Shown in pieces: positions 9,579 to 23,366 of a stretch of DNA of 64,000 bases. Within the stretch, counting starts at the first letter, position 1. Each line of letters opens with the position of its first letter. This stretch comes from Porticoccaceae bacterium. GTDB taxonomy: Bacteria > Pseudomonadota > Gammaproteobacteria > Pseudomonadales > Porticoccaceae. A program made the position numbers and the translations under genes. The stretch spans positions 48,394 to 112,393 of the forward strand of contig JABJOY010000034.1 of NCBI GenBank assembly GCA_018664075.1, read 5' to 3'. The notes under the pieces were generated by a model. The model did no database searches, was not told the origin of the DNA, and saw nothing but the letters and a program-made list of their open reading frames with translations.

Positions 9579-10640
9579 ATGCCTCCAAGTAATCCCAAAC
9601 AGACAGTCGCAGCGACCGGTTCTGCGCCAAAAATCCTTGTGGTTGGTCCTTCATGGGTCGGCGACATGATGATGGCCCAGGCGCTTTTTATTGCCCTGAA
9701 GCAACAGCAGCCCGGGGCTATTATTGATGTGCTGGCGCTGGGTTGGTGCAGGCCTATTCTTGCGCGGATGCCCCAGGTCAATCGTACTATCCCGATGCCT
9801 CTGGGTCATGGCAAGTTTGATCTCAAGGGACGCAAAGCATTGGGTGTCAGTCTGCGCGATGAACATTATGACCAGGCTATTGTGCTGCCCAACTCCTGGA
9901 AGTCGGCGCTGATTCCATGGTTTGCCAATATTCCTGTACGCACTGGCTGGAAGGGCGAGGCGCGGTACTTTTTGCTCAATGATCTGCGCAAGTTAAATAA
10001 AACCACATTACCGATGATGGTGCAGCGCTATGTAGCACTGGCCTATCCCCGAGCCAGTGCAGAGCGCGAGGCTCTAGGCCATTGCCCACTGCCTGCGCTG
10101 CAAGTAGATCCCCGGCAGTTGCCAACGCTGGCTGAGAAGTTCAATCTGTCGCGGCAACCCATGCTGGCCATCTGCCCCGGAGCTGAATTTGGTCCCGCCA
10201 AGCAATGGCCGGTAGATTACTACGCTAATCTGGCCAGACAGTTTATTGATAAGGACTGGCAGGTGGCGATTATGGGTTCTCCCTCTGATGTTGAGACCGG
10301 TGAGGATATTGCCAGTAGCGTTGACTCTGAGTCTATTGTTAATCTGTGCGGAGAAACCAGCCTTGAGGAGGCTATAGATATTCTGTCTATGGCTGAGAAG
10401 GTGGTGTCCAATGACTCCGGGCTTATGCATATTGCGTCGGCGTTAAATCGGCCGCTGATTGCTCTCTATGGCCCGACCTCTGCCGAATTTACGCCGCCTC
10501 TGTGTCGCGATGCCCGCATACTGTCTGTGAAGGTTGACTGTGGCCCCTGTTTTCAGCGGCAATGTCCCCAGGGGCATCACAAATGTATGACCCAGCTGGG
10601 TGTTGATACTGTGATTAATGAGCTTGATGCTATTGGTTAA
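9579..10640 (+). CDS. waaF: lipopolysaccharide heptosyltransferase II
   Basis: LVVGPSWVGDMMMAQALF, CPGAEFGPAKQWP, SNDSGLMHIASALNRPLIALYGPTS; GT9 heptosyltransferase. Confidence 0.95.
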   Translation: MPPSNPKQTVAATGSAPKILVVGPSWVGDMMMAQALFIALKQQQPGAIIDVLALGWCRPILARMPQVNRTIPMPLGHGKFDLKGRKALGVSLRDEHYDQAIVLPNSWKSALIPWFANIPVRTGWKGEARYFLLNDLRKLNKTTLPMMVQRYVALAYPRASAEREALGHCPLPALQVDPRQLPTLAEKFNLSRQPMLAICPGAEFGPAKQWPVDYYANLARQFIDKDWQVAIMGSPSDVETGEDIASSVDSESIVNLCGETSLEEAIDILSMAEKVVSNDSGLMHIASALNRPLIALYGPTSAEFTPPLCRDARILSVKVDCGPCFQRQCPQGHHKCMTQLGVDTVINELDAIG

Positions 10641-13767: not shown

Positions 13768-14888
13768 TGACTGTAGAGAGTCGGTTTTATCATATTGTGC
13801 ACACTGAATCCTCCGGAGGCTGGGGTGGTCAGGAGATCCGTATTCTCAATGAGATACGTGAATTCGTTAAGCTCGGTTTTCCGGTCACTCTGGTCTGTGA
13901 TGCTGGCTCTCCCATAGCGTTGCGGGCGCAGCAATATGGACTCACTACGGTGCAACTGCCTATGGGTAAGAAAACCATTAAAGGCTTGTTTGCCCTGCGG
14001 CGATGGATTGTGCAAAATGATTTTGACCTGATTAATACCCATAGTTCATCGGATAGCTGGATGGTGGCGGTGGCTATGTTGATGACCTTAAAGACCGTAC
14101 CAATCATTCGAACCAGGCATGTGTCGGCGCCGGTTTCGACCAATCGCTCAACCAGCTGGCTATATAAAAAAGCAGCGGCTCATGTTGTCACCACTGGTGA
14201 GAGGCTGCGGCAAACTCTGATTCGTGACAATGGCATCAGTCCGGATAACGTGACCTCTGTTCCCACTGGTATTGACTGTAATATTTTTACTCCGACCAAG
14301 GATGTCGAAGCAGTGCGCAAGGCACTGGATCTGCCGCTGGATAAATGCATTATCGGCATTGTTGCCACTTTGCGGAGTTGGAAAGGGCACAGCTATTTGC
14401 TCGACGCATTTAGTCAAATTGATCTGTCAGACAGCCATTTGCTGGTTGTTGGTGATGGCCCTCAGTGGGACAATATCAATAAGCAAATAGACCGCTTGGG
14501 TCTCAGGGAAAAAGTCACATTGTGCGGCGATCAACAGGATGTGGTGCCCTGGATGCAGGCTATGGATATTTTTACTCTGCCGTCCTATGCCAATGAAGGT
14601 GTTCCCCAGGGCTTGATGCAGGCGATGGCCTGTGGGTTGCCGGTTATCTCAACAGATGTGGGCAGTATTGTTGAAATTATCGATGACAATTACACCGGTA
14701 TTATTGTTGAAAAACAGAGTGCTGCTGCCCTGACTAAAGCTATTACAGCTCTCAGGCAGGATAACAATCTGCGCCAGTCAATCGCTGAGCGAGCATTGCT
14801 GTTTGCGCGGCAAAACTGTGATATCAGTGCTATGAGGGACCGAATGAATTCAGTGTTTTTAACCATTCTTAACAGGAATAACAGATGA
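13767..14888 (+). CDS. glycosyltransferase family 4
   Basis: HTESSGGWGGQEIRIL, LPSYANEGVPQGLMQAMACGLPVISTDVGSIVEII. Confidence 0.88.
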   Translation: MTVESRFYHIVHTESSGGWGGQEIRILNEIREFVKLGFPVTLVCDAGSPIALRAQQYGLTTVQLPMGKKTIKGLFALRRWIVQNDFDLINTHSSSDSWMVAVAMLMTLKTVPIIRTRHVSAPVSTNRSTSWLYKKAAAHVVTTGERLRQTLIRDNGISPDNVTSVPTGIDCNIFTPTKDVEAVRKALDLPLDKCIIGIVATLRSWKGHSYLLDAFSQIDLSDSHLLVVGDGPQWDNINKQIDRLGLREKVTLCGDQQDVVPWMQAMDIFTLPSYANEGVPQGLMQAMACGLPVISTDVGSIVEIIDDNYTGIIVEKQSAAALTKAITALRQDNNLRQSIAERALLFARQNCDISAMRDRMNSVFLTILNRNNR

Positions 14889-16123
14889 AGGATCAACCAG
14901 CTGTATCGGTAAAATGGGAATTCTATTCCCTATGTCTTCTGGCGGCTAGTCTGCCGATTGTTGAGGTCACAAAAAACTTAGCCTGGTTTATGTTGGTGAT
15001 TTTTTTTGCGATCAGGAATATAAAAACCAAACAAGATTTGTTGGCAGATTTTCTTGGTAATATGTTTCTCGGATTTATGCTCCTGAGTGCTGTGGCTGCG
15101 GTGGGAGCCAGTTTCAATGGTTATGACTCGGGCAAGATCAGCGATATTATCAGGTACGGATTGGTGGGCTGGATGCTAATGTATATCCCATTATCCAAAC
15201 AGCAAATTTATACCATTCTGGCACTACTTTTTGTGGCTACCAGTATTGGCGTGATTGTCGCTTATCTTGAGACAGCTTACTGGCAGGGCGGGGCTTTTGA
15301 GTTGCGTTCTGTGGGGCATATCAACCATACGGCGATATTTATTGCATTGACGCTGGGTGCTGTCGTCCCTTTGCTACTCTCTAGAACTAGCGCTTTTCAG
15401 GCTCGTCTGGTGCTTATGCCCATGGCGATTATTCTGACCGCAGGGCTGTTCTTTGCAGATAGCAGGGCGGGGATTGTGGCTCTGGCGATTATCGTTGCAA
15501 TTGCCCTGTTGCATAGCCTGATGTTCCATCTTAAAACAGGTGTTGCTGTATTATTATTGGCTATTGCGGCTGGTGGATATATGGTTTCTGCACCGCCCAA
15601 GGTGGTTGAAGAGCTGGTTGATCGGCCCATGCTGTATATGGGGAATACGCCAGCACCTAGAGAGAAGCTGTGGAACTCTGCTGTGTATGGACTTAAAAAA
15701 GAGCCGGTATTTGGTATTGGTTTTGGCAATTACAGTATTATTGATCCGGAGCAATTAAGCCTCTGGTTCCCTGATGAAGATTTCACTGATAACGAGCAGT
15801 TTTATTACTCCTCCCATGCCCACAATAGATTTCTAAACTCCGCAGTCGAGGGTGGGATATTTGGTTTCGCTGGCTTGATGCTGCTATTGGTGGGGCCGGC
15901 TATTTGTCTGTGGCGCAATCGGAAGTTTATGCTGCATAAAAGCACCTCTGCTGCATTCTGGGTTATACCAGCAACTAGTATGGCTATTGTTACCGTTATC
16001 GGACTGGTCAATACCACCATTCATCATGAGCATGGATTGCTGACAATGATGCTGTTTGGATTGTCATTTAATTTCTTAAATCGTCTGCAGTCATCTCAGG
16101 CTCCAGCGAAAACAGTCGCCTAG
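14885..16123 (+). CDS. O-antigen ligase-like polytopic membrane protein
   Basis: About 10 hydrophobic segments; loop SSHAHNRFLNSAVEGGIFGFAGL typical of the Wzy_C/WaaL ligase domain. Confidence 0.82.
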   Translation: MKDQPAVSVKWEFYSLCLLAASLPIVEVTKNLAWFMLVIFFAIRNIKTKQDLLADFLGNMFLGFMLLSAVAAVGASFNGYDSGKISDIIRYGLVGWMLMYIPLSKQQIYTILALLFVATSIGVIVAYLETAYWQGGAFELRSVGHINHTAIFIALTLGAVVPLLLSRTSAFQARLVLMPMAIILTAGLFFADSRAGIVALAIIVAIALLHSLMFHLKTGVAVLLLAIAAGGYMVSAPPKVVEELVDRPMLYMGNTPAPREKLWNSAVYGLKKEPVFGIGFGNYSIIDPEQLSLWFPDEDFTDNEQFYYSSHAHNRFLNSAVEGGIFGFAGLMLLLVGPAICLWRNRKFMLHKSTSAAFWVIPATSMAIVTVIGLVNTTIHHEHGLLTMMLFGLSFNFLNRLQSSQAPAKTVA

Positions 16124-16129
16124 TCTGCA

Positions 16130-17338
16130 ATGGTTGAGTTAAAGGCGGATATTGTTGTTATAGGCGCGGGCATTGCGGGCCTGTGGCTGCACCGTCGGCT
16201 CAATGATTTAGGCTATTACACAATCTTGCTTGACAGAGCGGGGTTGGGCGGGGGGCAGACTCTAAGCTCACAGGGCATTATCCATGGTGGCAGCAAATAT
16301 ACATTGTCCGGGATGATGACCGCCTCCGCCTCAGCGATCTCTGCTATGCCAGATCGCTGGCAGCGATGCATGGAGGCCGAGGGCGAGATAGATCTATCGG
16401 GACTGAGGGTGCTTAGTGCCAACCAGTTTATGTGGTCCACTACTGCACTATCCTCAAAATTGACTTCTTTTTTTGGCAGCAAAGCTGTCAATGGCAAGAT
16501 TCAGCAGCTCAGCCCTGAGCATTATCCGCTGGCGTTTCAGTCTAAACAAAATAATGGCAGCCTCTACCGATTAAATGAAGCTGTTGTCGATGTGTCATCT
16601 CTGGTGGAGCAGCTGTCCGGCAAATGGCGGCAGCGTATGTTGCAGTTGCCACAGGAATATGAGTTTGAGCGCAATGCTCAGGGTCTTGTGGCTGGCTTAA
16701 AGGTTGCCGATAAGTTGCAGATCAGCGCATCGCAGTTTGTACTGAGCAGCGGTGAAGGCAACCAGTCCCTGTTGACGGAGCTGTCGATGGATAAGCCCAA
16801 AATGCAGCGCCGCCCATTACATATGATTTTAGCCAAGGGTAAAAATCTTCCGTCAATCTATGCCCATTGTATTGGTGCCAGCACTAAACCATTGGCCACC
16901 ATAACCACCCATTATCATTCTGATGGTGATCCAGTTTGGTATATAGGTGGCAAACTGGCGGAAGAGGGCGTGGATGCTGCGGCTGATGATTTGATTGCAG
17001 AGGCTGAAACAACATTGCCCAGATTGCTGCCATGGGTGGATCTGAATAATGTTAGCTGGGCGACCCATAAAATTAATCGGGCTGAGCCCGCCCAGTCTAG
17101 ACTGCTGCGCCCGGATACGGCGTATGTCAACTCAGTGGGTAATGTTCATATTGCCTGGCCAACCAAACTGGCGCTGGCACCGGATCTGGTCGATCGATTT
17201 GAAATAGAGCTGGCGGAGCAGAATATTCAACCAGATTCAGGTTTGAATCATCAGCAAATAGATCAGGCTATGCCGGCAGAATTTGCCGCCACTCAGGCGG
17301 AAAATCTTTGGGAGAGATCATTCCATGGAGTTCGCTAA
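16130..17338 (+). CDS. FAD-dependent oxidoreductase (DAO family)
   Basis: Rossmann ADIVVIGAGIAGLWLHRRLNDLGY; SSQGIIHGGSKYTL. Confidence 0.85.
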   Translation: MVELKADIVVIGAGIAGLWLHRRLNDLGYYTILLDRAGLGGGQTLSSQGIIHGGSKYTLSGMMTASASAISAMPDRWQRCMEAEGEIDLSGLRVLSANQFMWSTTALSSKLTSFFGSKAVNGKIQQLSPEHYPLAFQSKQNNGSLYRLNEAVVDVSSLVEQLSGKWRQRMLQLPQEYEFERNAQGLVAGLKVADKLQISASQFVLSSGEGNQSLLTELSMDKPKMQRRPLHMILAKGKNLPSIYAHCIGASTKPLATITTHYHSDGDPVWYIGGKLAEEGVDAAADDLIAEAETTLPRLLPWVDLNNVSWATHKINRAEPAQSRLLRPDTAYVNSVGNVHIAWPTKLALAPDLVDRFEIELAEQNIQPDSGLNHQQIDQAMPAEFAATQAENLWERSFHGVR

Positions 17339-18137
17339 GCTGGGCAGTACCGGGTTAGAGGTTAGCGTGCTGGGTCTTGGTACCGTCAAGTTTGGGCGCA
17401 GCCTGGGGGTTAAATATCCCGCCCCCTATGCTATTCCCGGTGATCGGCAGCTGTTAAATATTCTCGATTGCGCGGCAGATGTTGGCATAAATTTGCTGGA
17501 CACCGCCCCAGCCTATGGTGCCAGTGAAGAGCGTTTGGGGCAGTTGTTAAAGAGGGCATCTGGCCAGTGGCTGGTCTCTACCAAAGTGGGTGAGATCTTT
17601 GATCCCCGCACTGGGCTATCCAGTTACAACTTTAGCCCGGAATTTATACGAGCTTCCGTAGAGAACAGCTTGCGGCTGCTGGGTCTTGACCATCTGGATA
17701 TAGTGCTGCTGCATTCCAACGGTGATGACGAAGACATTATACTCAAGCAGGGTGGCCTTGACTCGCTGGCGGCACTCAAACAAGAGGGGCTGATACGGGC
17801 AACTGGTATGTCAACCAAGACGGTTGCGGGAGGTATTCTGGCCGCATCGCGATCCGATGTGGTGATGGTGACTCATAATCTTGATTATCGGGATGAAGTT
17901 GCGGTGATCGATTATGCTGGGGACAGGGGAGTCGGGGTCTTTATCAAGAAGGCGCTATCCAGTGGCAATGCACTGTTGGGAGATAATCTGGCTGAGGGAG
18001 ATATCGTGCAGCGAAGTTTTGATTGTATTTATCAGCATCAGGGTGTCAGCAGTATTGTTCTGGGATCAATAAACCCAGCTCATATTGTCGATAATGCCAA
18101 AAAAGCTATCGCCAGTTACTGCAATAATCAGCTTTGA
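17325..18137 (+). CDS. aldo/keto reductase
   Basis: MEFAKLGSTGLEVSVLGLGTVKFGRS, LLDTAPAYGASEERLGQLL; ATG at 17325 overlaps the previous gene by 14 nt. Confidence 0.9.
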   Translation: MEFAKLGSTGLEVSVLGLGTVKFGRSLGVKYPAPYAIPGDRQLLNILDCAADVGINLLDTAPAYGASEERLGQLLKRASGQWLVSTKVGEIFDPRTGLSSYNFSPEFIRASVENSLRLLGLDHLDIVLLHSNGDDEDIILKQGGLDSLAALKQEGLIRATGMSTKTVAGGILAASRSDVVMVTHNLDYRDEVAVIDYAGDRGVGVFIKKALSSGNALLGDNLAEGDIVQRSFDCIYQHQGVSSIVLGSINPAHIVDNAKKAIASYCNNQL

Positions 18138-19543
18138 GCTTTATTTATAATGTCAGTGGTTGAACAGTCTGTCACCATAGACATAACTCGCACTTCACCG
18201 CCGTAACCTTCAACGATCTCTCTGCCCACCACTTGCTCTTCGGTGTAATCACCGCCTTTAACCAGGATGGAAGGTTGGAGCTGGGCGATTAACTCCTCTG
18301 GTGTGTCCCCTTCAAAACAGGATACCCAGTTGACGCTTTGCAGTCCCTCAATAACCGCCAGTCGACGTTCGAGACTGTTGATTGGTCGACCTTCACCTTT
18401 AATTCTGGTGACAGATTCATCACTGTTAATGGCGACAATAAGTCGATCCCCCAGCGCTTTGGCCTGTTGCAGATAGGCGACATGGCCAGCATGCAGAATA
18501 TCAAAGCAGCCGTTGGTAAATACTACTTTCTCACCATTTTTCTTGGCCAGTTCTACGGCCAGACAAAGCTGCTCAACACTGAGCGCTCCATGATTTTGCT
18601 GAGTATTTAAAAATGCCAGTTCCAGCTCTGGCGCGGTAATAGCATTGGTGCCTATTTTGCTCACAACATTGCTGGCGGCAATATTGGACAGACTGACTGC
18701 TGTTTCCATATTAGCTCCAGCGGCGAGTGAGGCCGCCACTGTGGCGATCACTGTGTCGCCAGCACCTGTGACATCGGCGACTTCCTTAGTCAGGGCGGGC
18801 AGATGAAACGGGTTTTCATCGGGGCGAAATAAAGTCATGCCTTTTTCACTGCGAGTGACCAGCAGGCTGTCAATATTTAGCTGCTTGATCAACCGCTGTG
18901 CTTTGATTGCCATATCTTGCTCTGAGTCGACTGGGCCCACAATGGTGATAAATTCTGCCAGATTAGGTGTCAACAGGGTGGCGCCAGCATAGCGGTTAAA
19001 ATCGCTACCCTTGGGGTCAACCACTACGGGGATATTATTTGCGGCACCATAGTTGATCACTGCCTGACAGTTGCTCAATGTCCCTTTGTTGTAATCCGAC
19101 AGCACAATAATGTCTGCATCAACTAGGTTTTGCTGGGCTCGGGCCCACAGAGGAGGCCAGTCGTTGTCACTAAATATTGACTCAAAATCCATGCGCAAAA
19201 ACTGTTGCATGCCGCCCATAATTCTCGATTTAACTGTGGTGGCGGTAGTTGATCGATACAGCTCACAGGCAACATTAATTGAGCTGAGCTGAGCCTGAAG
19301 TTGATCGGCATCGGCATCGTCCCCAACCAGGCCAGACAGGCTGGTGGTGACCCCCAGGGATACCAGATTGACGGCAACATTAGCCGCTCCACCAGGCGAG
19401 GATTCCTCGCATTTAATCTGTACTACCGGAACCGGAGCCTCTGGCGAAATGCGAGTAACATCACCATAGAAATATCGATCCAGCATAATATCGCCAATTA
19501 CCGCGACTTTTGCGGAATGATAATCGGGGAAAATATTGTGCAT
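18128..19543 (-). CDS. hldE: bifunctional D-beta-D-heptose 7-phosphate kinase / heptose 1-phosphate adenylyltransferase
   Basis: PfkB kinase VTGAGDTVIAT plus nucleotidyltransferase VFTNGCFDILHAGHVAYLQQAKALGD. Confidence 0.97.
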   Translation of the reverse strand: MHNIFPDYHSAKVAVIGDIMLDRYFYGDVTRISPEAPVPVVQIKCEESSPGGAANVAVNLVSLGVTTSLSGLVGDDADADQLQAQLSSINVACELYRSTTATTVKSRIMGGMQQFLRMDFESIFSDNDWPPLWARAQQNLVDADIIVLSDYNKGTLSNCQAVINYGAANNIPVVVDPKGSDFNRYAGATLLTPNLAEFITIVGPVDSEQDMAIKAQRLIKQLNIDSLLVTRSEKGMTLFRPDENPFHLPALTKEVADVTGAGDTVIATVAASLAAGANMETAVSLSNIAASNVVSKIGTNAITAPELELAFLNTQQNHGALSVEQLCLAVELAKKNGEKVVFTNGCFDILHAGHVAYLQQAKALGDRLIVAINSDESVTRIKGEGRPINSLERRLAVIEGLQSVNWVSCFEGDTPEELIAQLQPSILVKGGDYTEEQVVGREIVEGYGGEVRVMSMVTDCSTTDIINKAQS

Positions 19544-19560: not shown

Positions 19561-20541
19561 TTACTCTGTTAGCAAAGGTAAGAATTCGGCCCAGACCCTG
19601 TCTACAGAGATATCTGACATGCTGCCATTGTTGGCGTCTTGAGCGGCGACTATATGCCGTTGATTGTTGCCTACAGTACCAATTAAGCTGGTATCAGTCA
19701 CGGCATACAATGTGATTGCTGGTGTGGCAGCCATTGCAGCGAGATGGGCCAGGCCTGTATCGCTGCAAAGCATTGCTGTGGCTCCCGATATAATTGCCGC
19801 TATATCATCCAAGTTGGTTTTGGAGAGGGCTATTGCCGCAGAGCATCCCTCTGCGATTTTTTGCGCCCGTTTAAACTCTTTGTCGTTGCCGCTCGGTAGT
19901 ACCACTGTATAGCCTAAGTCCGCTGCCCGCTGACTTGCGTCTTGCCAGTAATTCACAGGCCATAGTTTAGTCTCCCAGCTGGCATTGTGCACAAATACCA
20001 CATACTTATTTTTGGGTTTGATGTCCGGGCTGGCAAACTGAGTAAAATTAACATTGTACTCGGGCGCTGTGTTTGGCTCTTGGTAGCCGAAAATCCTGGC
20101 AAATAGCTGTCGTTGTCTAGCTATAGCATGCTGGTTCACCGGGATTGAGTATTGATGTTTATAGCTCAGATGGGCTGGTTTTTCACGGCATGACTGGTGG
20201 TCGTATCCGGACACGGGGCTGCGACGAAGCAGCGACACCAGCGCGCTTTTTAAATTGCTCTGCAGGTCAATAACCAGATCATAGTCCCTGTGATTTAGCT
20301 GCTTGTAAAAGCCTTTGAACTCACCATTGATCCATGCAGCTCTGAGGTTTTTCTTCCAGCGACGATGGGCGCTGACAATCAGTTTCTCCACGGCGGGATG
20401 CCATTTTGGCACCTCGGCAAAGTTCTCATCTACTACCCAGTCAAAGCTGATTCCGGGGACATTATTGACCGCATCAGTCAGTGCCGGCAGGGCATGCATA
20501 AGGTCGCCCATGGAACTCAGTTTAATTATCAGTACGCGCAT
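19561..20541 (-). CDS. waaC: lipopolysaccharide heptosyltransferase I
   Basis: MRVLIIKLSSMGDLMHALPALTDA, FVHNASWETKLWPVNYW, CSDTGLAHLAAMAATPAITLYAVTD. Confidence 0.95.
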   Translation of the reverse strand: MRVLIIKLSSMGDLMHALPALTDAVNNVPGISFDWVVDENFAEVPKWHPAVEKLIVSAHRRWKKNLRAAWINGEFKGFYKQLNHRDYDLVIDLQSNLKSALVSLLRRSPVSGYDHQSCREKPAHLSYKHQYSIPVNQHAIARQRQLFARIFGYQEPNTAPEYNVNFTQFASPDIKPKNKYVVFVHNASWETKLWPVNYWQDASQRAADLGYTVVLPSGNDKEFKRAQKIAEGCSAAIALSKTNLDDIAAIISGATAMLCSDTGLAHLAAMAATPAITLYAVTDTSLIGTVGNNQRHIVAAQDANNGSMSDISVDRVWAEFLPLLTE

Positions 20542-20546
20542 ATTAT

Positions 20547-21182
20547 TTATAGACTGGCGAAAGGTTTGAGGAGTTTTTTGAAAAAGGCACTGACTCTGTG
20601 GCGCACAATATGCTGCCTGCTATATTTGGCATCTGCGAGGTAATTGATTTGCAGTGACTGTCTCTGCCCCTCAAATGGCTTATAGCCATGCCAGCAATTG
20701 TCTGTGACCTTAAAGGCGATCATCTGACCTATAGCGGCTGAATACTCCGTGTCACAATCGTTGACATTGTCCGAGTTCAATATTCTTAAGCGACCTGTTT
20801 TATGTTCCCAGCCATCATTGAAATACAGTAGAACAGTGATAAGTTTGGTTTTGGAGTCTGTATGTGATTTTCCGTCCCGCAGTCGCGAGTTGCCGCGAGC
20901 GGTGACTAAAATAGGCTTAAGAGTTAGATCTACATCGAGCTTTTTCGCTATCAGAGCACGGAATCTGTCACTCTCGATTTCATTGATTAGCTCATTGAGA
21001 GTATCTGAAATGGTAATATCGCTTAGAGAATAGCTGCCGCCACTGGAAATATCGGGGAAGTTGGCGAGTATCTCTCTGTGACGAGAAATATTGAGCGCAT
21101 TATCAACACCAAAGAAAGTGAAAGGCTGCCGCTTTACGCTGGCCTTCTCTATAGCTGTGTAATCAAAAAACTGATATGACAT
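20547..21182 (-). CDS. 2OG-Fe(II) oxygenase family protein (211 aa)
   Basis: HxD in DGKSHTDSKTKLITVLLYFND and distal H...R in NCWHGYKPFEGQRQSLQINY. Confidence 0.78.
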   Translation of the reverse strand: MSYQFFDYTAIEKASVKRQPFTFFGVDNALNISRHREILANFPDISSGGSYSLSDITISDTLNELINEIESDRFRALIAKKLDVDLTLKPILVTARGNSRLRDGKSHTDSKTKLITVLLYFNDGWEHKTGRLRILNSDNVNDCDTEYSAAIGQMIAFKVTDNCWHGYKPFEGQRQSLQINYLADAKYSRQHIVRHRVSAFFKKLLKPFASL

Positions 21183-21203: not shown

Positions 21204-22226
21204 CTAGTAATAACCGCGATACCATTCGACGAATTTACCTATACCATTATATATAGATATTGCAGGTTTGTAGCCAATTTCTGCAATTAATTCTTTAGTA
21301 TCAGCAACGGTCTCGGGAAGATCTCCAGGTTGTAGAGGCAGCATTTCTATCTGTGCCGACTTGCCCAGAGCTGACTCAAGTGCACCGATATAATCCATTA
21401 ATGGTACTGGGCTGCCGCAGCCAACATTATAGATCTTCCAGGGGGCTCTACTGCTGCTTGGGTCGGGTTTAATGCCTGACCAGTCCGGGTTTCCGGTAGC
21501 ATTGATATCCAAGACTCGCACAATGGCCTCTACAATATCGTCGATATAGGTAAAGTCCCTGCGGTGATTGCCATAATTGAACACCTTCAGCGGCTTGTCA
21601 TTAAGGATAGCATCGGCAAATAGAAACGGTGACATATCCGGTCGGCCCCATGGGCCATAGACGGTAAAAAACCTCAGTCCTGTAGTAGGCAGCTGATAGA
21701 GATGGCTGTAGGTATGTGCCATTAATTCATTGGCTTTTTTGGTCGCTGCATAGAGTGACAGTGGGTGGTCTACATTGTCTTTTACCGAGAATGGAGTGGC
21801 TTCATTGGCACCGTATACAGAGCTGGATGAAGCATAGACCAGATGCTGGATCTGATTTCGACGGCAAGCTTCAAGGATATTGGTGTAGCCGACAATATTG
21901 CTGTCAATGTAGGCGCGGGGGGCTTCCAGTGAATAGCGCACGCCTGCCTGCGCTGCTAAATGTATAACTTTGTCAAATTTCTCCTGGGTAAAAAGCTGAT
22001 CTATGGCAGTCTGATCGGAGATATCTATCTGCTGGAAGGAAACGCTTCCCTGGCTGGTTGATCGACTGCTGGCCTCAGTAACCCAGTCCAGGCGCGCATA
22101 TTTTAAGCTGGTATCATAATAATCATTGATATTATCTATACCAATGACCTTGTCCCCTCGGGCTGCAAGCGCGAGACTGACATGAGAGCCTATAAAACCG
22201 GCTGCACCGGTGACTAACAGTTTCAT
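21204..22226 (-). CDS. NAD-dependent epimerase, UDP-glucuronate 4-epimerase-like
   Basis: MKLLVTGAAGFIGSHVSLALAARGDKVIGIDNINDYYD; YAATKKANELMAHTYSHLYQLPTTGLRFFTVYGPWGRPDM. Confidence 0.92.
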   Translation of the reverse strand: MKLLVTGAAGFIGSHVSLALAARGDKVIGIDNINDYYDTSLKYARLDWVTEASSRSTSQGSVSFQQIDISDQTAIDQLFTQEKFDKVIHLAAQAGVRYSLEAPRAYIDSNIVGYTNILEACRRNQIQHLVYASSSSVYGANEATPFSVKDNVDHPLSLYAATKKANELMAHTYSHLYQLPTTGLRFFTVYGPWGRPDMSPFLFADAILNDKPLKVFNYGNHRRDFTYIDDIVEAIVRVLDINATGNPDWSGIKPDPSSSRAPWKIYNVGCGSPVPLMDYIGALESALGKSAQIEMLPLQPGDLPETVADTKELIAEIGYKPAISIYNGIGKFVEWYRGYY

Positions 22227-22261: not shown

Positions 22262-22771
22262 TTAAATGATGTTCCGTACACAGTCCAATAGACTAGCGTA
22301 CTGTGGCTGTTTTTTTGTTGATGCGCCGCAGGCTGGTCCTAGCAAATAGCTGTGGCGAATGCCCGCCGCAGTCGCTGCCTCGGCATCTGACTGCTTGTCG
22401 CCGATCATAATAGATGAAGCAAAATCAATATCGTGTTGGGCTGCTGCCTGCAGAAATAATCCGGGGGCAGGTTTGCGGCAATCGCAGAGGGCTTCGGGGG
22501 CATGGGGGCAGTGATAAATGCCCGCTATCGCTATGCCGTGCTGTAATAGTTGTTCGCGATACCAGCTGGTTAACTGTTGATAATCCTGCTCCGAATAATA
22601 ATTGCGGCCTATGCCCGATTGATTGGTGACAATAATCAGGGCAAAGCCTTTTTGCTCAAGTAGTTGCAGCGCTTCAGTGCAGCCCTCCGTAAAGACAAAG
22701 TTTTCTCGGTGATGAACATAACCGTTGTCTACATTAATAACGCCATCTCGATCCAGAAATGCCACTTTCAT
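22262..22771 (-). CDS. gmhB: D-glycero-beta-D-manno-heptose-1,7-bisphosphate 7-phosphatase
   Basis: MKVAFLDRDGVINVDNGYVHHRENF, HCPHAPEALCDCRKPAPG. Start set at 22771, not the ORF start 22888 that would overlap gmhA. Confidence 0.93.
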   Translation of the reverse strand: MKVAFLDRDGVINVDNGYVHHRENFVFTEGCTEALQLLEQKGFALIIVTNQSGIGRNYYSEQDYQQLTSWYREQLLQHGIAIAGIYHCPHAPEALCDCRKPAPGLFLQAAAQHDIDFASSIMIGDKQSDAEAATAAGIRHSYLLGPACGASTKKQPQYASLLDCVRNII

Positions 22772-22781
22772 GATTGCACCT

Positions 22782-23366
22782 CTAGATTGACTCGCGATTA
22801 ATGCCTGCATCAACAAATGCGCACAGCATGTGCCCAATAAAACTATGTACTTCTTGAATTCTAGGAGTGCAGGCTGAGGGCACAGCAATGCAGTTATCTA
22901 CTATTTTTGCCAGCGCGCCGCCAGTTTGGCCAGTCAATGCCAAGGTGCAGCAGCCCTTTGCCTGCGCCACTTTCATTGCCTCGCAGATATTTTGGCTGTT
23001 ACCACTAGTGGAATAGCCCACTACCACATCATCCGGCTGGGCAAGAGCTTCAACCTGTCGTGAAAATATACAGTCGAAGCCATAGTCGTTGCCCACTGCG
23101 GTTAAGATCGATGTATCTGTCGTTAGCGCGATTGCTGGCAGAGCTCTGCGTTCACTGAGGTACCGGCCGACTAATTCTGCTGCTATATGCTGAGCATCTG
23201 CAGCACTGCCGCCATTGCCCATCAGTAAAATTTTGCCGCCATTATCAAGGCTGTCCAACCATTTTTGACCGGCCGAACTCACAGCTGACGCAAGCTCTCT
23301 GGCCATATTAATGACCTCAATATGTTCATTGAGTTGTGAGAGATAAAGGTCCGAAAAGTTGGCCAT
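22782..23366 (-). CDS. gmhA: D-sedoheptulose 7-phosphate isomerase (SIS domain)
   Basis: GGKILLMGNGGSAADAQHIAAELVGRYLSERRALPAIALTTDTS. Confidence 0.94.
   Translation of the reverse strand: MANFSDLYLSQLNEHIEVINMARELASAVSSAGQKWLDSLDNGGKILLMGNGGSAADAQHIAAELVGRYLSERRALPAIALTTDTSILTAVGNDYGFDCIFSRQVEALAQPDDVVVGYSTSGNSQNICEAMKVAQAKGCCTLALTGQTGGALAKIVDNCIAVPSACTPRIQEVHSFIGHMLCAFVDAGINRESI

Follow-up and report, generated by a model that had tools for sequence, protein, structure and literature searches.

What does an oxygenase gene do in the middle of an operon for lipopolysaccharide (LPS) heptose? The question is raised by a stretch of Porticoccaceae DNA of 64 000 nucleotides (the whole of which is called the window here), in which a gene for a 211-amino-acid protein with an HxD...H motif is surrounded by genes of the heptose pathway. 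An initial annotation of this DNA proposed that the protein hydroxylates an inner-core sugar (heptose, Kdo or a uronic acid), and that the modification is coupled to heptose supply.

The oxygenase gene and its protein family

The open reading frame proved to be exactly as first annotated, with an ATG start and with the stop codon included in its coordinates (Table 1). The minus-strand order gmhA-gmhB-epimerase-oxygenase-waaC-hldE, head-to-tail with short gaps, was likewise confirmed, the successive gaps being approximately 10, 35, 21, 5 and 17 bp. However, the candidate promoter placed before gmhA in that annotation was not recovered: in a promoter scan the gap ahead of gmhA contains no sigma-70-like site, and the 12 such sites over the region are what chance would give (9.2 +/- 3.0 in shuffled sequence). 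Among 34 other species of the genus that were searched, only one (G011) has the gene; its copy is 85% identical and lies in the same gene order, which shows that the reading frame is not a chance one. The neighboring epimerase presumably has UDP-glucuronate 4-epimerase activity, as general knowledge of its family suggests. On the plus strand at 14885-18137, an O-antigen-ligase-like gene (PF04932), an FAD-dependent oxidoreductase gene and an aldo/keto reductase gene form a run converging on hldE, and this run is also kept in the second species (L007).

Table 1. Features of the oxygenase operon and of the facing gene run in the window
Feature	Coordinates	Strand	Evidence
2OG/Fe(II) oxygenase (predicted), 211 aa	20547..21182	-	PF13640 above cut-off; H107, D109, H165, R174; basic C-terminal tail; no PF11004
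waaC, heptosyltransferase I; kept downstream partner of the oxygenase	19561..20541	-	TIGR02193, 302.5 bits vs cut-off 185.3; adjacency in 7 families
hldE, heptose-7-P kinase/adenylyltransferase	18128..19543	-	NF008454, 639 bits vs cut-off 521
NAD-dependent UDP-sugar epimerase	21204..22226	-	PF01370, E 1e-57; closest solved chain 5u4q, E 8e-137
gmhB, heptose bisphosphate phosphatase, ATG start	22262..22771	-	NF006506, 183.5 bits vs cut-off 178
gmhA, sedoheptulose-7-P isomerase	22782..23366	-	best NCBIfam PRK13936 (2e-61) and TIGR00441 (2e-58), both under cut-offs; SIS_2 domain
waaF, heptosyltransferase II, within the facing core/O-antigen gene run	9579..10640	+	TIGR02195, 466 bits vs cut-off 134.6

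At an E value of 0.01 the protein has only two Pfam matches, one to PF13640 (2OG-FeII_Oxy_3; E 3e-7, 31.7 bits vs a curated cut-off of 27) and a weak one to PF13661. The HxD...H iron triad and the 2OG-binding arginine (H107, D109, H165 and R174) are invariant in all 59 aligned relatives, and so are K113, T116, G130, L132, R133, G152, F157 and G166. In a narrower set of 31 close relatives, here termed group A, T94, R96, D103, G104, W164, N180, H195 and A199 are also invariant, and the protein ends in a basic tail that may contact the membrane or LPS. The protein has a conserved signature of its own, TxRGxSRxKDGRIHTDSK, KVTDNCWHG and KHxFFHGxSAKxK. An AlphaFold2 model built from a shallow three-sequence alignment has a mean pLDDT of 35, too low a confidence to judge the double-stranded beta-helix fold of the PF13640 superfamily.

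The initial annotation had named the KdoO, PhyH and 2OG-FeII_Oxy families for comparison, and it is the last of these that was found. Neither PhyH (phytanoyl-CoA dioxygenase) nor the LpxO family PF05118 (Asp_Arg_Hydrox) is among the Pfam matches at E 0.01, PF11004 (Kdo_hydroxy) matches neither the protein at this threshold nor anything else in the window's genome, and a PDB sequence search up to E 10 returned no KdoO chain. The PF11004 search works, because the same profile detects members in two of 392 genomes of the order, neither of which has the oxygenase. Orthology to KdoO was rejected on the profile result. As predicted from its profiles and conserved residues, the protein is a 2OG/Fe(II) oxygenase of PF13640 that falls outside the known LPS oxygenase families KdoO and LpxO, and outside PhyH.

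Linkage to waaC and distribution

In 12 genomes, which belong to seven families, waaC directly follows a group-A oxygenase gene on the same strand (four genomes in f31, two each in f1 and f4, and one each in f177, f181, f75 and f124). The two reading frames usually overlap or are separated by a few bases, and are roughly 70 bp apart in f31. The order is hldE-oxygenase-waaC in f181; a GT2-like gene precedes the pair in f75, and ilvE-like and zinc-finger genes (recognized by eye) precede it in f177. In f147 a GT9-family gene is directly upstream of the oxygenase. Between families the waaC proteins are 42–57% identical and the oxygenases only 35–54%, which indicates that the gene order is either old or selected. 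It is clear that the pair was retained across large evolutionary distances. A simple calculation puts the chance of pairing in seven of the eight waaC-bearing families at ~6e-23, a figure that overstates the case because the pair shares descent. Correlated divergence of the oxygenase and waaC across families was not detected (Spearman 0.03), a result that is uninformative at such distances.

In the tree of the oxygenases, the waaC-linkage label requires 5 changes, compared with 11.2 when labels are shuffled. Most deep branches of group A consist of waaC-linked rows, several deep forks being poorly supported, and the unlinked rows of f29, f16, f24 and f49 form one nested clade. We read this pattern as an old linkage to waaC that was probably lost in the latter clade.

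The window's genus and one other family are alone in having heptose-supply genes in the same run, which places the coupling with waaC and not with heptose supply. Thus, the neighborhood survey suggested for waaC and hldE gave a divided answer, adjacency to waaC being conserved and linkage to hldE not. The initial annotation had staked its reading on conservation beside heptose genes and on an intact catalytic triad, and the adjacency to waaC and the invariant residues provide both. The link of the oxygenase to LPS is well supported. Genes for type II secretion (gsp, recognized by eye) occur near the oxygenase in f31 and f9, which we regard as coincidence: waaC separates them from the oxygenase in f31, and in f9 they are at least two genes away.

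Within the window's genus, the oxygenase is an accessory trait, as its rarity there shows. A waaC of the window's type is found in two of 50 genomes of the genus, the window's included (E <= 1e-60), and hldE in seven of 50; the whole heptose module looks like an accessory trait as well. By the same counts, LPS without heptose may be the rule in the genus.

Profile searches of 392 genomes of the order and 369 of the class found relatives of the oxygenase in 31 and 20 of them, respectively. Further genomes outside the class also have relatives. Beyond group A these relatives fall into several branches. Some distant ones adjoin ELM1-type (PF06258), sulfotransferase or O-antigen ligase genes, including in genomes outside the class (L165 and L173), and others are solitary or plasmid-borne. 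The plasmid relatives (Acidiphilium, Acidithiobacillus and Microvirga) stand in non-LPS contexts and on distant branches. The wider family therefore supports a glycan-related theme, but no single substrate for all members. It is a separate branch of the oxygenases that has ELM1-type glycosyltransferase-like genes adjacent or near (L165:6139-7931, L173:6599-8295, L114:8063-9667, L117, L069, L071, L113, L115, L120 and L122). At L166, L168, L169, L171, L072, L073 and L113, a second, divergent open reading frame that weakly matches the same profile (E ~1e-6 to 1e-9) directly follows the oxygenase, forming a recurrent tandem pair of putative 2OG oxygenases.

Two other origins or roles were considered and rejected. 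Relatives of the oxygenase were absent from viral contigs, phage records and PHROGs, which speaks against a viral origin, and the PADLOC match on which a defence role might be based is to a generic '2OG' profile only.

Candidate substrates: Kdo and its competitors

We tentatively favor oxidation of the Kdo part of growing LPS as the function of the oxygenase. It would act once WaaA has done its work and at about the stage of WaaC, and hydroxylation of a Kdo is the most likely reaction. The protein would be either soluble or bound peripherally to the inner membrane, and would work at the cytoplasmic face of that membrane. WaaA would build Kdo-lipid A; the oxygenase, with Fe(II), 2-oxoglutarate and O2, would oxidize this intermediate, most likely at a Kdo carbon; and WaaC would then add heptose, where heptose exists. 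We infer that Kdo, and not lipid A or another sugar, is the substrate, that the reaction is a hydroxylation and that it precedes heptose addition. Oxidation at the Kdo stage has precedent, since KdoO reportedly works between the Kdo transferase (KdtA/WaaA) and WaaC (PMC8533242). The present enzyme is probably an uncharacterized equivalent of KdoO in another family of 2OG oxygenases; we found no paper on this family in the open-access literature, and a subscription journal may already have described it.

The choice among substrates depends largely on genomes that have the oxygenase and lack waaC. In the DISCRIMINATING test, profiles for waaC (TIGR02193), the heptose kinase (TIGR02198) and the Kdo transferase domain (PF04413) were run against the genomes that have the oxygenase, at strict thresholds (1e-40 and 1e-60). 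Highly divergent versions could escape these thresholds, but the members found score ~1e-83 to 1e-125. Fifteen group-A genomes have waaC, and in 12 of them it adjoins the oxygenase, which is located elsewhere in G209, G591 and G793. Thirteen further group-A genomes (eight of f29, three of f16 and two of f24; 93–100% complete) have waaA and no detectable waaC or hldA/hldE kinase. Because these genomes keep the oxygenase even though waaC and the kinase go undetected, heptose is unlikely to be the substrate; if their oxygenases are orthologs sharing one function with the others, heptose is not the substrate, and what is common to all is Kdo-lipid A. The neighbors at these orphan loci (MetK/AhcY-like and MoxR-like genes, partly recognized by eye) appear unrelated to LPS, so another role is possible there.

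Two observations on unlinked oxygenases may be added. Those of G209 (f31) and G359 (f24), at L048 and L050, adjoin one neighbor family, cluster c59, which is ptsP-like by eye, although the two genomes belong to different families. Four genomes of f9 (G042, G148, G175 and G199; L011, L043, L053 and L058; 97–100% complete) have a related oxygenase and no detectable PF04413, waaC or heptose kinase, and possibly have Kdo-free LPS or a divergent pathway.

The proposal of inner-core sugar hydroxylation is thus retained in part: linkage to inner-core assembly recurs in many families and Kdo is favored among the sugars, but heptose is disfavored by the 13 genomes. The coupling to heptose supply is not retained, given these same genomes and a conserved partner that is waaC and not the supply genes.

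Of the other explanations, a rather unlikely one is that the enzyme hydroxylates an acyl chain or sugar of lipid A, an LpxO-like role performed by a different family, and that its pairing with waaC reflects shared regulation of LPS genes. Lipid A is present with or without heptose, so the waaC-less genomes fit this explanation. However, what recurs beside the oxygenase is specifically waaC, whose product acts on Kdo; among the adjacent genes, which were annotated in part, lpx, waaA and acyltransferase genes were not noticed; and the LpxO family profile does not match.

Somewhat less probable again is a protein hydroxylase, for example one acting on prolyl residues of an LPS enzyme or regulator and serving as an oxygen-sensing regulator of core assembly. 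The nearest solved chains found by sequence, 9ei6 and 9blq, carry the annotations prolyl-4-hydroxylase-like and 'putative hydroxylase' and not those of LPS enzymes, which counts against the Kdo model, and EGLN1 is a weak further match. These matches nevertheless span mainly the common catalytic core, and linkage to varied LPS glycosyltransferases (waaC, GT9 and ELM1) better fits a glycan substrate.

Hydroxylation of heptose (HepI) or of ADP-heptose, giving a modified inner-core heptose, is improbable. In the window the gene is indeed part of a heptose operon, and the hldE-oxygenase-waaC order recurs in f181, but group-A relatives persist in the 13 genomes, of three families, without detectable waaC or kinase, and it is linkage to waaC that is conserved, not linkage to gmhA, gmhB or hldE. 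We give as little credence to modification of a different core sugar, or of a sugar nucleotide, for example a uronic acid from the neighboring epimerase, an option of the initial annotation whose one basis is that the epimerase adjoins the oxygenase in both f1 species, an arrangement not seen in other families or anywhere outside the window's genus.

If the Kdo reading is extended beyond the window, it is possible, though we hold this with less confidence than the reading itself, that a second type of Kdo-oxidizing enzyme, from a non-KdoO family and bound to waaC, exists in many families of Gammaproteobacteria and yields Ko or another oxidized Kdo anchor, also in heptose-free lineages. Ko, which is reported to be acid-resistant, replaces Kdo in Acinetobacter, Acetobacter, Granulibacter and some Yersinia and Burkholderia (PMC8036547). 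With PF11004 in so few of the sampled genomes of the order, a wider occurrence of Ko there would need another enzyme. If the extended reading is true, the waaC-coupled oxygenase would offer direct and testable genetic access to a change, dependent on oxygen, in the lipid A-core link, and its gene a marker predicting which marine bacteria carry that change.

Comparison with known 2OG oxygenases

KdoO (Kdo 3-hydroxylase, PF11004), known from Burkholderia and Yersinia, modifies the outer Kdo and resembles the present protein in being an Fe(II)/2OG oxygenase with a link to the assembly of the inner core. Its step in that assembly (PMC8533242) is also the one that gene order suggests for the oxygenase. 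However, the KdoO model has 275 positions, and the oxygenase is shorter, with 211 residues. The profile of the YhhC cyclophane-peptide 2OG oxygenase (NF041706) matches 119 residues weakly (E 1e-4), but the score of 21.8 bits compares with a cut-off of 150, and the gene context is that of LPS and not of peptide modification. With the PF13640 superfamily, including prolyl hydroxylases such as EGLN1 and the PDB entries 9ei6 and 9blq, the oxygenase shares the catalytic core, the HxD...H motif and the 2OG-binding arginine, whereas its own conserved signature and its LPS gene context set it apart.
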